NCBI RefSeq assembly: GCF_003574135.1
Contig: NZ_AP018341.1
Span: forward strand, 2,331,740-2,395,739
DNA from: a cyanobacterium endosymbiont of Rhopalodia gibberula
Lineage (GTDB): Bacteria > Cyanobacteriota > Cyanobacteriia > Cyanobacteriales > Microcystaceae
Length of the DNA stretch: 64,000 bases
Direction of reading: 5' to 3'
Shown: one piece after another, positions 572 to 26,254 of the stretch
Position numbering within the stretch: position 1 is the first letter of the stretch
How the letters are laid out: the number at the start of each line of letters is the position of its first letter
Notes under the pieces: generated by a model
Told to the model about the DNA's origin: nothing
The model's input: the letters and a program-made list of their open reading frames with translations, nothing else
Databases searched by the model: none
Made by a program: the position numbers and the translations under genes

Positions 572-732
572 TTAAGCATATGCGTGTAAATTTATTTTGA
601 GAGATTTTTATCCTAAAAATTGCCCTAGAATGCTTTTTTTTAAAAAAAAAGAAAAAAGTTACCTGATTGAGAATATTATGTTAAGATGAAGGGCAGTGAG
701 TTAGCTAAACTACACTAAGTGAAGTACATCTT

Positions 733-1038
733 GGGGGCGTGGCGGAATGGTAGACGCTACGGACTTAACAAAGTTGAGCCTTGTTAGAGAAATCTATCAA
801 GTGACCGCTCTCAAACTCAGGGAAACCTAAGTCTGAGATACAGATAAGGCAATCCTGAGCCAAGCCTCGGACTTTTCGAGGAAGGTGCAGAGACTCGACG
901 GGAGCTACCCTAACAGGTAAGGCTGAGGGTAAAGAGAGAGTCCAATTCTCAAAGCCTGTTTTGGCAGTAGCGAAAGCTATAAGAGAATGAAAATCCGTTG
1001 ACCGCAAGGTCGTGAGAGTTCAAGTCTCTCCGCCCCCA
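733..1038 (+). tRNA. trnL-UAA: tRNA-Leu(UAA) interrupted by a group I intron
   Basis: The 5' exon is 733-766 and the 3' exon 990-1038. They give a GGGGGCG/CGCCCCC acceptor stem, a GCG/CGC D stem, an ACGGA/TCCGT anticodon stem, a class II variable arm (GACC-GCAA-GGTC) and a GAGAG/CTCTC T stem with a TTCAAGT loop. The anticodon UAA is split after its first base, the classic insertion point. No CCA is encoded: the sequence after the discriminator A is TT. The D loop (AATGGTAGA) looks one base shorter than the usual AATTGGTAGA form. Confidence 0.96.
767..989 (+). ncRNA. Group I self-splicing intron in tRNA-Leu
   Basis: This 223-nt intron lies between the first and second anticodon bases and ends in G. 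Core elements can be read directly: a Q-like segment AATCCTGAGCCAAG, the R segment with GTGCAGAGACTCGACGGGAG, and the pairing S segment GAGAGAGTCC near the 3' end that closes P7. There is no room for a homing endonuclease. It is the old vertically inherited intron of cyanobacteria and plastids. Its core is intact, so it is probably still spliced. Confidence 0.94.
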
Positions 1039-1044
1039 TTAAGT

Positions 1045-22131: not shown

Positions 22132-22455
22132 TTAGAGATACTTTTCGATAGTGTTGGCTAAAGTCGTTTTGGGAACTGCTCCAACCACCATATCTACTCG
22201 TTGGCCATCCTTGAAAATCATTAGAGTGGGGATGCTACGAATGCCATACTGACTTGCAATTTGAGGGTTGTCGTCGGTATTGAGTTTGACGACTTTGACT
22301 TGACCCTCATACTGTTCAGCGATTTCTTCTACTACTGGAGCAACCATACGACAAGGCCCACACCAAGGAGCCCAAAAATCCACTAGAACCGGAATATCGC
22401 TGTCTAAAACGTCGTCTTTAAACTTCTCATCTGTAACTTCGGCTGGCTTTGACAT
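22132..22455 (-). CDS. trxA: Thioredoxin 1 (m-type)
   Basis: 107-residue thioredoxin with the active site WCGPC at residues 31-35, the buried Asp in VLVDFWAP, the cis-proline in RSIPTLMIF and GAVPKTTL near the end. It reduces protein disulphides in the cytoplasm using electrons from thioredoxin reductase. Length and motifs are standard. The gene follows the Yfr1 small RNA on the same strand, an arrangement found in many cyanobacteria. The upstream region carries direct CTAGAAT repeats near 22484-22504. Confidence 0.97.
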
Positions 22456-22637
22456 AATAAAGAATTCCTTTAATTGCTTGCGCCTCTCTAGAATACTCTA
22501 GAATTCTACCATAACAGAAACTATCTTGATTTATTTCAAACAAAGAGCCTTTTTAATTTTATAAATAATTTATTTCTTTGTGATTGAAAACTTAATATTT
22601 TTTGAAATGAAAGAACATCTCTCTGGCACCTTAGGCA

Positions 22638-22711
22638 AATAAGAAACCGCCCGAACAATGCTCGGGCGGAGTGTGGTGTGAGGAGTGAACGGAAACATTT
22701 GTCTCCGCTGC
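22638..22711 (-). ncRNA. yfr1: Yfr1 small regulatory RNA
   Basis: On the minus strand upstream of trxA lies the complete Yfr1 architecture. A 5' stem-loop (CGGAGAC / GTTTCCG) comes first, then the invariant single-stranded core ACTCCTCACAC (22676-22686). A strong terminator follows: CCGCCCGA / TCGGGCGG stem (22647-22669), then TTTCTTATTT. Yfr1 is known in nearly all cyanobacteria, often next to trxA, and base-pairs through its core with mRNA ribosome sites, for example of porin genes. The 5' end is estimated from the stem. Its GC-rich, perfectly paired form within AT-rich DNA shows it is maintained. Confidence 0.92.
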
Positions 22712-22715
22712 TTCT

Positions 22716-22721
22716 ATTGTA
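22716..22721 (-). promoter_or_regulatory. Probable -10 element of yfr1
   Basis: TACAAT on the minus strand, about 6 bases before the estimated Yfr1 5' end. No convincing -35 box was found. Confidence 0.4.
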
Positions 22722-22740
22722 GATGACAATTTGCATTTTG

Positions 22741-23923
22741 ATACAGCTTTTCTGGCATAGTTAAGGAATTTTTTAAGAATTAAAATATTACAATGGTACG
22801 GCTAAGAGTTGTGCATTGACAAATTACATTATATATGCACTATTTTGAATAGATAAATTGATTGCTGTAACATTGGACTAACTCAAAATCACTTAGATAA
22901 TAAACAAATATCTTAAGAAATAAGGGAACTAAATTTTAATTTCAATGTATTTACATATAAATACTCACAAAATAAAATTATGACTAATTTCAAGAGATAA
23001 TTTTTTCTGGATTTAATGCTAATTGGCAATGAACTTTTTTCCCTTTATCAGCTCTAACTTAAACATAATAAAAATTTACAAAAACTTAAAAAAGTCAATC
23101 AAAATGAACTCATATTTTTTAAGTCTAAATTTATAGATTCTACAGAACTGCTTTAGGAATCAATATTAAAAATTAATAACCTAATAAGTTATTTTCAAGT
23201 CAATCATTATACTTTTACTAACTTAAACTAAGTCATAGTTTTTTTCTAGAAAATCTAGAATACTAAAAAGCGTCATGTTTATATAAACAATTATTAAACT
23301 TTTATCTGTTTTTAGACCTTTAACCGACAGGTATTCTTATTTTTTATTTAAATCTTCTAATGTTTAACTATTCTTAGCATAAGAATTTTGACAAGATTAG
23401 TTAACATTAATCATTATTTAGATATATTTTTTTTATAAAATTAGTTTTTAACCAAGAAAAATTTGAATATAATAAAATAATCTGATTAGTTTATCTAAAA
23501 ATTTCATACTTATTATCTTATCCAAGATAATCAATAGATTACTTTGATTAGTTTTGCTATTAATTTTTAAAAAAAAAATGACTGTATTATCAATACTTGA
23601 GATTTCATTTACAAAGTTAATATATTATTGAATATAATTCAACAGTTTTATAATTTGATTATAACCAGAAACGGTTCACGATTTATGGAGGTATAAATTA
23701 CACTTAACTATCGATTTCCTTGTAAAAGTTTTAATAGATATCTATTTTTTTGAACATCTTCCCTATTTTATTCAGATAGCTTATATTTACGTTCATCTGT
23801 CAATACGAAACTCCTAAACAGGTAATTTCACATTAATTCAGAAATGATAATTGCTATTGTTTGATTTTAATAGAGTCTCTCAACTAAGATCTTTAATATA
23901 TACATCTCCTTAAATGTAACTCC
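22741..23923. other. Non-coding AT-rich stretch of 1.2 kb
   Basis: No gene, RNA or relic recognised between yfr1 and the helicase gene. In many cyanobacteria guaB lies on the other side of yfr1; no trace of it is visible here. Confidence 0.5.
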
Positions 23924-26254
23924 ATGACTGTTAATAATGACTTTCTTGCTCAACTTAATACCTCACAACGTCTAGCTGTTGAACACTTTTGCGGACCTTT
24001 ATTGGTGGCAGCTGGTGCTGGTTCAGGCAAAACTAGAGCCCTCACTTGTAGAATTGCTCATCTGATTAGTCATCATCATGTTGAACCAGACTCTATTCTA
24101 GCTGTTACCTTTACGAATAAAGCAGCTAGAGCAATGAAAGAACGAATTGAGAGATTATTTGCCCAGGAAATGGCTATTAAAAATCATAGACAACGGTTTG
24201 ATCTTCTCTCTGAATATGAACAAAAAAAACTTGTGTCACGAGTTTACAAAACAACTACTAAAAGGCTTTGGATTGGAACTTTTCATAGTTTATGTGCAAA
24301 AATTTTACGTTTTGACATCAATAAATATAAAGATGAACGGGGACGACAATGGCAGCGAAATTTTTCAATTTTTGATGAATCAGATGTACAAAGTTTAATC
24401 AAAAATATTGTAACTAAGCAATTAAATTTGGATGATAAAAAATTTGATCCTCGCTCAGTTCGCTATCAGATTAGTAACCTGAAAAATTTAGGATTATCTC
24501 CTGAAAAATATCTTAAACAAGACTCTTCCTATAAAAATCGTGTTATTGCTGAAGTTTATAATGAGTATCAATTACAATTAGCAACGAATAACGCCTTGGA
24601 CTTTGATGATTTAATCCTAGTTCCCGTTAGACTATTTCAACAAAATGAGTCTATTCTTGGCTATTGGCATAACCAATTTAAACATATTTTAGTTGATGAA
24701 TATCAAGATACTAATCAAATTCAATATGAATTAATTAGTTTATTAACAACTAATGGAGAAACTAGAAAAAGTGAATGGAATTGGCAAAATCGCTCTATTT
24801 TTGTTGTAGGTGATGCTGATCAATCTATTTATAGTTTTCGCATGGCAGACTTTACCATTCTGTTAAATTTTCAATCAGATTTTGGAGATGGTTTGCCCGA
24901 TGAAGATACCCGTACTATGGTTAAATTAGAAGAAAATTATCGTTCAAGAGAAAATATCTTACAAGCAGCTAATTATTTAATTGAAAATAATACTCAACGC
25001 ATTGATAAAATTTTGAAGGCTACACGGGGACTAGGAGAATATATTTATTGCTACAAGGCGGATAATGAACAAATAGAATCAAAAATAGTAATTGATAAAA
25101 TACAAAACTTAGTAAAAGAAACCCCTGAATTAAATTGGGGAGATTTTGCGATTCTTTATCGAATTAATGCTCAATCTCGTCCTTTTGAAGATTGCTTAAT
25201 TTATAATAATATTCCTTATAAAATTGTAGGAGGATTTAAATTTTATGATCGCCAAGAAATCAAAGATGCTTTGGCTTATTTACGCCTAATTGCTAATCCT
25301 GCAGATACCGTTAGTTTACTAAGGATTATTAATACACCCCGTCGAGGAATTGGCAAAACTTCTATAGAGTCTTTAGTTAAAGCAGCCCAAGAATTAGAAA
25401 TCCCTCTTTGGGAAATTATTTCTGATACGACTTCTGTTAATACTCTAGCAGGAAGAGCAGCAAGATCAATTAACAATTTTTCTAAAATGATTAAATATTT
25501 TCAAGAAAAAATAACTAGCCTATCAGGGGCAGAAATTTTAAATCAAATAATGGAAGTTTCTGGCTATATTGATAATTTAAAAGAAAAAGGGACTGAAGAA
25601 GCTGATAATCGCTTAGAAAATATTTCTGAGTTATATAATGCTATTTTACAGTTTCAAGAAGATGCAGAAGACATTAATTTACAGGGATTTTTATCTAATG
25701 TTTCCCTCTCGTCTGATTTTGATGATTTAAAAGAAGAAGAAAAAAAGGTGTCTTTAATGACTCTTCATTCAGCTAAAGGATTGGAATTTCCTGTAGTATT
25801 TTTAGTTGGTTTAGAACAAGGATTATTACCTCATATTCGTAGTTTGAACGATCCTCTATCTTTAGAAGAAGAACGTCGTTTGTGTTATGTTGGATTGACT
25901 CGCGCTCAGGAACAATTATTTTTAACCTATGCTAGAGAACGGTTTGTTTGGGGATCAAAAGAAACTAAAATTCCATCGCAATTTTTAAAAGAGCTACCTT
26001 CAGATTTAATCAAAAATGATCTTCCAAAAACTTTAAAATCTTATCATCAATCCAACATATCTCAATCTAAAACTTTTCAGATATATAATCAACAATGGTC
26101 AGTGGGAGATCGTCTAATTCATCCCAATTTTGGAATCGGAGAAGTTACTCATATTTTAGGATCAAGAAAAAAAATGAACTTAGCCGTTAAATTTTCAGGA
26201 TTTGGACAAAAAATCATTAATCCTAGAGTGACGTTGATAGAAAAGATTGATTAA
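23924..26254 (+). CDS. pcrA: UvrD/PcrA-type superfamily 1A DNA helicase
   Basis: 776 residues, the normal length for PcrA/UvrD, an ATP-driven 3'-5' helicase of excision and mismatch repair and replication upkeep. The Q motif LNTSQRLAVEH, Walker A AAGAGSGKT (residues 29-37), VTFTNKAARAMKERI, GTFHSLCAKILR, Walker B ILVDEYQDTNQIQYEL, VGDADQSIYSFRMAD, ENYRSRENIL, VSLMTLHSAKGLEFPVVFLVG and YVGLTRAQEQLFLTYA all appear in order. The C-terminal Tudor-like domain is present (GDRLIHPNFGIGEVTHI). The sequence is Lys/Asn/Ile-rich, reflecting the AT bias, but no motif is damaged. Confidence 0.94.
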   Translation: MTVNNDFLAQLNTSQRLAVEHFCGPLLVAAGAGSGKTRALTCRIAHLISHHHVEPDSILAVTFTNKAARAMKERIERLFAQEMAIKNHRQRFDLLSEYEQKKLVSRVYKTTTKRLWIGTFHSLCAKILRFDINKYKDERGRQWQRNFSIFDESDVQSLIKNIVTKQLNLDDKKFDPRSVRYQISNLKNLGLSPEKYLKQDSSYKNRVIAEVYNEYQLQLATNNALDFDDLILVPVRLFQQNESILGYWHNQFKHILVDEYQDTNQIQYELISLLTTNGETRKSEWNWQNRSIFVVGDADQSIYSFRMADFTILLNFQSDFGDGLPDEDTRTMVKLEENYRSRENILQAANYLIENNTQRIDKILKATRGLGEYIYCYKADNEQIESKIVIDKIQNLVKETPELNWGDFAILYRINAQSRPFEDCLIYNNIPYKIVGGFKFYDRQEIKDALAYLRLIANPADTVSLLRIINTPRRGIGKTSIESLVKAAQELEIPLWEIISDTTSVNTLAGRAARSINNFSKMIKYFQEKITSLSGAEILNQIMEVSGYIDNLKEKGTEEADNRLENISELYNAILQFQEDAEDINLQGFLSNVSLSSDFDDLKEEEKKVSLMTLHSAKGLEFPVVFLVGLEQGLLPHIRSLNDPLSLEEERRLCYVGLTRAQEQLFLTYARERFVWGSKETKIPSQFLKELPSDLIKNDLPKTLKSYHQSNISQSKTFQIYNQQWSVGDRLIHPNFGIGEVTHILGSRKKMNLAVKFSGFGQKIINPRVTLIEKID

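Follow-up and report, generated by a model that had tools for sequence, protein, structure and literature searches.

Yfr1 small RNA in a non-photosynthetic endosymbiont of Rhopalodia gibberula and its candidate pairing sites in envelope-gene leaders

The locus studied here raises the question of what the small RNA Yfr1 is kept for in a cyanobacterial endosymbiont that has lost photosynthesis. The window, the whole 64,000-nt stretch analysed, lies in the chromosome of the Rhopalodia gibberula spheroid body. The source genome (G000) consists of a single contig of 3,020,309 bp, the length published for NZ_AP018341.1, in which four ncRNAs were counted (PMC11131595). This symbiont is reported to have no functional photosystem genes (PMC5638926). 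It was compared with three other spheroid-body-type genomes: the Epithemia turgida symbiont (G037), the E. clementina symbiont (G040), and Cyanobacterium sp. uoEpiScrs1 (G041, record of 2,483,960 bp). The free-living Rippkaea orientalis PCC 8801 (G036) and strain SU2 (G038) were also included. G002 and G003, labelled UCYN-A-like, are genomes of 1.4–1.5 Mb from the same family, without PsbA/D and with intact PsaA/B. PsbA/D (PF00124) gave no match in G000, G041, G002, and G003; low-scoring fragments (20–42 bits, stops in 5 of 6) in G037 and G040; and full-length, stop-free matches in G036 and G038. PsaA/B (PF00223) was a broken remnant of three pieces in G000, two of them with stops. In G040 it was likewise broken, into four pieces with stops; G037 and G041 had none, and it was full-length and stop-free in G036, G038, G002, and G003.

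Yfr1 is defined by two stem-loops with an unpaired stretch of 16–20 nt between them (PMC2190773). The covariance-model search proposed in the initial annotation matched Rfam Yfr1 (RF01116) over the full model (1-59 of 59) at 22708-22645 on the minus strand, with 62.3 bits against a gathering score of 38 and an E of 5.9e-10. It was the one match in the whole genome (E 6.6e-12), and the gene is thus single-copy. The initial annotation had placed Yfr1 at 22638-22711 without a strand; its presence stands, and its position was refined to 22645..22708 on the minus strand, with the 5' end at 22708. The predicted fold had two hairpins around an unpaired linker, with −29.1 kcal/mol and z = −5.86 (none of 200 shuffles as stable). 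The alignment and the predicted fold placed a 5' hairpin of 8 pairs with a 4-nt loop at 22689..22708 (minus). The linker at 22670-22688 left 19 unpaired nt between the stems, in keeping with the definition. The core ACTCCTCACAC lies in this linker at 22676..22686 (minus), where the undecanucleotide ACUCCUCACAC, which marks membership of the family, occurs as an exact copy, and was invariant in 23 of 23 aligned loci. It was the sole match in the window with at most one mismatch. The core motif alone is not improbable (present in 26 of 100 shuffles); the whole model and the fold are. The 3' hairpin at 22647..22669 (minus) was terminator-like by fold and terminator scan and is followed by TTTCTTATTT (22646-22637). 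With its T-rich tail, it was one of three such sites detected between 22000 and 24000, where 0.6 were expected. The earlier claim of full structure, core, and terminator was therefore borne out. A 66-aa ORF (22536-22736, same strand) overlaps the locus and was taken as a chance frame. As an RNA, this Yfr1 is typical of its known family; what is unusual is the cell that carries it.

A −10-like box, TACAAT (22716..22721, minus), ends 7 nt before Yfr1 and was invariant in nine aligned genomes, as was the conserved upstream element ATCAAAAT (22735..22742, minus). The box did not appear among the hits of a consensus promoter scan and was therefore regarded as having no −35 match. The downstream neighbour is trxA (22132..22455, minus), a thioredoxin gene of 107 codons named by its sequence, with an intact ORF on the same strand as Yfr1 and 189 bases away, which agrees with the adjacency described before. 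The divergent neighbour (23924..26254, plus) is a UvrD/PcrA-type helicase gene, named by its sequence and by the order pcrA-yfr1-trxA (PMC2190773). Yfr1 was found beside trxA in 27 of 31 genomes (PMC2190773). Crocosphaera watsonii WH 8501 has the same order of divergent pcrA, yfr1, and trxA (PMC2190773), although it is a free-living photosynthetic relative and the source is an endosymbiont. The trxA leader, at about 22460-22515 (minus), contains a stretch TATGGTAGAAT..TCTAGAGTATTCTAGA..GCAATTAAAGGAAT that was largely kept in the nine aligned genomes and is probably the trxA promoter and leader.

Yfr1 was found in 49 of 50 genomes of the family, the source genome included. The sole genome without a match, under Infernal's stricter filters, was G025, a genome of genus g10 with about 4.3 Mb and 99% completeness, which has Cyano-1 matches. 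The aligned loci were 23 out of 30, from the 49 genomes with a match, and 99.7% of pair cells in their stems were standard. Changes on both sides of a stem occurred in 2 pairs; covariation is modest, since these pairs rest on 4 cells and 44 of 500 shuffles also reached 2 pairs. The mean pairwise identity in nine genomes was 0.934 for Yfr1, 0.824 for the trxA coding sequence, and 0.599 for the Yfr1-trxA spacer. Spheroid bodies are rich in pseudogenes, and the photosystem remnants of the source genome are still recognisable, as would be expected if the symbiosis were young and Yfr1 a neutral relic not yet decayed. That explanation is highly improbable. In the four spheroid-body-type genomes, Yfr1 had a mean identity of 0.974 (trxA, 0.937), against 0.897 for the spacer and 0.78 for the region 300–100 nt before the core; between G000 and the UCYN-A-like G002 the values were 0.906 for Yfr1 and 0.467 for the trxA spacer. 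The photosystem genes decayed over the same time as Yfr1 stayed intact, and its target sites were conserved too.

These sites were searched in the leaders of OprB porin genes (PF04966). Every spheroid-body-type and UCYN-A-like genome had three such genes, and PCC 8801 and SU2 gave five rows each; as two PCC 8801 rows are one gene, the total was 27 genes. An exact complement of 8–10 nt to the Yfr1 linker stood just before the start in 12 of 12 OprB genes of the four spheroid-body-type genomes and in 4 of 6 from the two UCYN-A-like genomes, in each of which the third porin had a partial site only. GTGTGAG was found within 50 nt upstream of 23 of the 27 porin starts, among them all 12 of the spheroid-body-type genomes; eight starts adjusted by eye bias this count in favour of sites. 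The four porins without it were the third of G002, the third of G003, and one each of PCC 8801 and SU2. As a control, 11 of 1667 ATGs in the window had at least 8 complementary nt within 50 nt upstream; one hit of 17 nt was taken as Yfr1's own antisense. The initial annotation had named loss of all predicted target sites as evidence against its reading; all three OprB genes of the source genome carry the complement ahead of the start codon. It had also argued from survival without photosystems to porin targets. PsbA/D is indeed lost and PsaA/B broken while Yfr1 is intact, but survival alone is insufficient: porins are supported as targets because the leader sites are conserved, not because Yfr1 survives.

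The leader GGTGTGAGG might instead act as a strong element for ribosome binding or translation and be conserved for that role, with its complementarity to Yfr1 no longer used in the symbiont. The GAGG in the leaders is Shine-Dalgarno-like and at a suitable distance from the start, and at the second porin, porinB, a block of 27 bases (AAGGTGTGAGGAAAAGCTGAAAATGCT) was identical across 8 of 8 genomes and extends beyond the Yfr1 complement through the start codon. However, the 5' half GGTGT was conserved too, and ribosome binding leaves it unexplained. With GAGG assumed in 20% of 1848 genes, composition alone would place GTGT in front of it in about 1.1 cases, whereas 6 were seen (P about 0.001); with 30% assumed, P was about 0.007. 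This estimate is rough; in the window, 0 of 32 ORFs had GAGG by the longest start. With Yfr1 itself intact, this alternative is unlikely, and regulation by pairing is the preferred reading.

Further candidate sites were sought in whole genomes. The bare 8-mer GTGTGAGG showed no excess over its reversed form in the source genome (22 against 24) and a deficit in PCC 8801 (50:81); the other six genomes gave 24:15, 24:24, 19:13, 65:25, 10:5, and 12:5. The 11-mer with at most one mismatch gave 31:27 in the source genome, and the series for six genomes was 31:27, 27:13, 37:27, 23:14, 84:67, and 107:31. Since there was no clear excess of the 11-mer in the source genome, sites linked to start codons were considered. 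GTGTGAGG with an ATG 4–18 nt downstream occurred 11 times in the source genome and its reversed form 4 times; the latter is a rough control, as GAGG ahead of the ATG is not preserved in it. The corresponding counts were 9:2 in G037, 12:1 in G040, 8:1 in G041, 15:8 in G036, 26:3 in G038, 3:0 in G002, and 4:0 in G003, places with two ATGs being counted twice in G037, G040, and G038. The 11 places in the source genome comprised two Yfr2, three without a long ORF, and six envelope-related genes. These six were porinA, porinB, and the genes of GlmM (TIGR01455, 608 bits), HpnJ (TIGR03471, 794 bits), a SpoIID/LytB protein (TIGR02669, 249 bits), and a member of the squalene/phytoene-synthase family (PF00494, under every equivalog cut-off). 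Two of the six, glmM and the synthase-family gene, were assumed to be envelope genes.

Orthologous sites were present for GlmM in 6 of 6 genus genomes examined, for SpoIID/LytB in 5 of 6 (none listed in G041), and for the squalene/phytoene-synthase-family gene in 4 of 6 (none listed in G041 and G036). G041:1432000-1434000 contained no site. The HpnJ site was found in 4 of 4 spheroid-body-type and 2 of 2 UCYN-A-like genomes; it was not listed in PCC 8801 and was one base off in SU2. hpnJ as an ancient cyanobacterial target was rejected. GTGTGAGG lay within 40 nt in only 4 of 41 cyanobacterial loci and 0 of 37 others, a split made by hand from record titles after two partial loci of 80 were dropped, and three of the 4 were spheroid-type genomes counted elsewhere. 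At murC, the complement GGTGTG-TC-AGGAG is interrupted by two bases, and murC may be a Yfr1 target. A second exact-core sRNA of the Yfr10 type, with the core in a hairpin loop, was not among the four places of the source genome with the exact core or complement, which were Yfr1, two Yfr2/Cyano-1 copies, and one leader; the search covered exact cores. GTGTGAGG stands ahead of two other kinds of gene as well (L171, L191, L196, and L302). One is an HpnI-like glycosyltransferase gene, scored in G041 (303 bits, cut-off 310) and assigned from sequence similarity in G036; the other is an AMIN/Amidase_3 gene of G036, with a counterpart assigned from similarity in G038. L158 (G036:C3:142285-142307) is an exact 11-nt complement before a gene with a weak match (24.3 bits, cut-off 22.3) to PF11924, the inverse-autotransporter beta-domain.

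Duplexes of the Yfr1 linker were modelled with positions −60 to +20 of the three porins, glmM, hpnJ, the SpoIID/LytB and squalene/phytoene-synthase-family genes, and murC. The predicted energies of these eight candidates were −17.7 to −26.4 kcal/mol, and none of 31 window ORFs was as low. Shuffled targets reached the observed energies in 0–4 of 300 cases and shuffled linkers in 0–25 of 300, so the energies support the pairing and do not decide it. Cyano-1 (RF01701), which we take to be Yfr2, had four matches in the source genome, three above the cut-off, and matches in 14 of 14 genomes searched. Two of these four copies contained an exact 11-nt complement to the Yfr1 core, and a third had one mismatch. 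In the two UCYN-A-like genomes, the four copies lacked GTGTGAGG, and their modelled pairing was still −17.8 to −23.4 kcal/mol. In Prochlorococcus, pairing of Yfr1 with ppa is inhibited by Yfr2 (PMC6778093).

Non-photosynthetic Yfr1 targets, porins among them, are not new: they are known in Prochlorococcus and Nostoc (PMC6778093, PMC6974561), and the porin result of Richter 2010 is cited in both articles. In an E. coli reporter, the Nostoc Yfr1 repressed ten leaders and activated one through its core (PMC6974561). Mutation of the core to AAAA strongly weakened the effect, compensating changes for mraY and murC gave partial rescue, and 9 of 11 predicted interactions lay just upstream of the start codon (PMC6974561). 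Yfr1 of Prochlorococcus MED4 (PMC6778093) and Nostoc PCC 7120 (PMC6974561) shares with that of the symbiont its sequence, fold, core, trxA position, and porin and murC leader sites. In contrast to both, the present cell is a non-photosynthetic endosymbiont, and mraY, a validated target in Nostoc (PMC6974561), was rejected here, with no site and −10.5 kcal/mol, an energy that 3 of 31 window ORFs also reached. The symbiont has sites at hpnJ, glmM, SpoIID/LytB, and squalene/phytoene synthase. Hopanoids, squalene, phosphoglucosamine, SpoIID, and radical SAM are not mentioned in the Nostoc main text (PMC6974561), nor are hopanoids and squalene in that on Prochlorococcus (PMC6778093). In the main texts of the open-licence literature, no earlier report of Yfr1 in spheroid bodies or UCYN-A was found, which is weak evidence of absence. 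No link between Yfr1 and hopanoids was found in that literature, and Yfr1 and porin were both absent from the open-licence genome papers on these symbionts that were examined.

Since the arrangement of sites is the same as in Nostoc, translational repression of envelope genes is the likeliest function of Yfr1, the direction of the effect being taken from that system. It is quite probable that Yfr1 still represses envelope genes through the predicted pairing, by covering ribosome-binding sites, and was kept under selection after photosynthesis was lost. The single gene would have been inherited from free-living ancestors, probably transcribed from its own promoter and stopped at its own terminator. 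The two hairpins would keep the ACUCCUCACAC core single-stranded, and this core may pair with (G)GUGUGAG(G), overlapping the ribosome-binding site in the mRNAs of the three OprB porins, glmM, the SpoIID/LytB gene, hpnJ, the squalene/phytoene-synthase-family gene, and perhaps murC. Ribosome entry would be hindered and translation of these mRNAs would fall, while the retained Yfr2 copies, with the same complement, could titrate Yfr1. Pairing, repression, and titration in the symbiont are inferred from experiments in other cyanobacteria. MicF/MicC-type sRNAs of enterobacteria cover the ribosome-binding site of porin mRNAs; they are alike in the way porins are repressed, an analogy with no claim of homology.

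Yfr1 might also be kept for another target or role, with the porin sites secondary. Its targets in Prochlorococcus include ppa, argJ, and pgm, and the Yfr1/Yfr10/Yfr2 network is reported to involve hundreds of genes (PMC6778093). However, 6 of 6 long ORFs behind GTGTGAGG-ATG in the source genome were envelope-related by family, and this explanation is quite unlikely. The locus separates Yfr1 from photosynthesis: the RNA, its presumed antagonist, and the envelope sites persist in a lineage that lost its photosystems independently, which suggests that selection maintains envelope control. Exchange with the host takes place across the symbiont envelope, and the candidate leaders form a short, testable list; a role of Yfr1 at the host interface is a guess. 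More tentatively, and with doubt, Yfr1-Yfr2 could be a core surviving post-transcriptional circuit in diazotrophic endosymbionts becoming organelles (spheroid bodies, UCYN-A). It would co-regulate outer-membrane permeability (porins), hopanoid-linked genes (hpnJ and the squalene/phytoene-synthase-family gene), and peptidoglycan supply (glmM, murC, and SpoIID/LytB), and the hpnJ site, which both symbiont lineages have and the examined SU2 and Crocosphaera loci lack, would have joined the regulon by convergence.

Elsewhere in the window, the default tRNA scan reported no tRNA. With introns allowed, ARAGORN gave a tRNA-Leu(UAA) gene at 732-1039 (plus), split by a group I intron (RF00028) at 757-964 with 92.8 bits.
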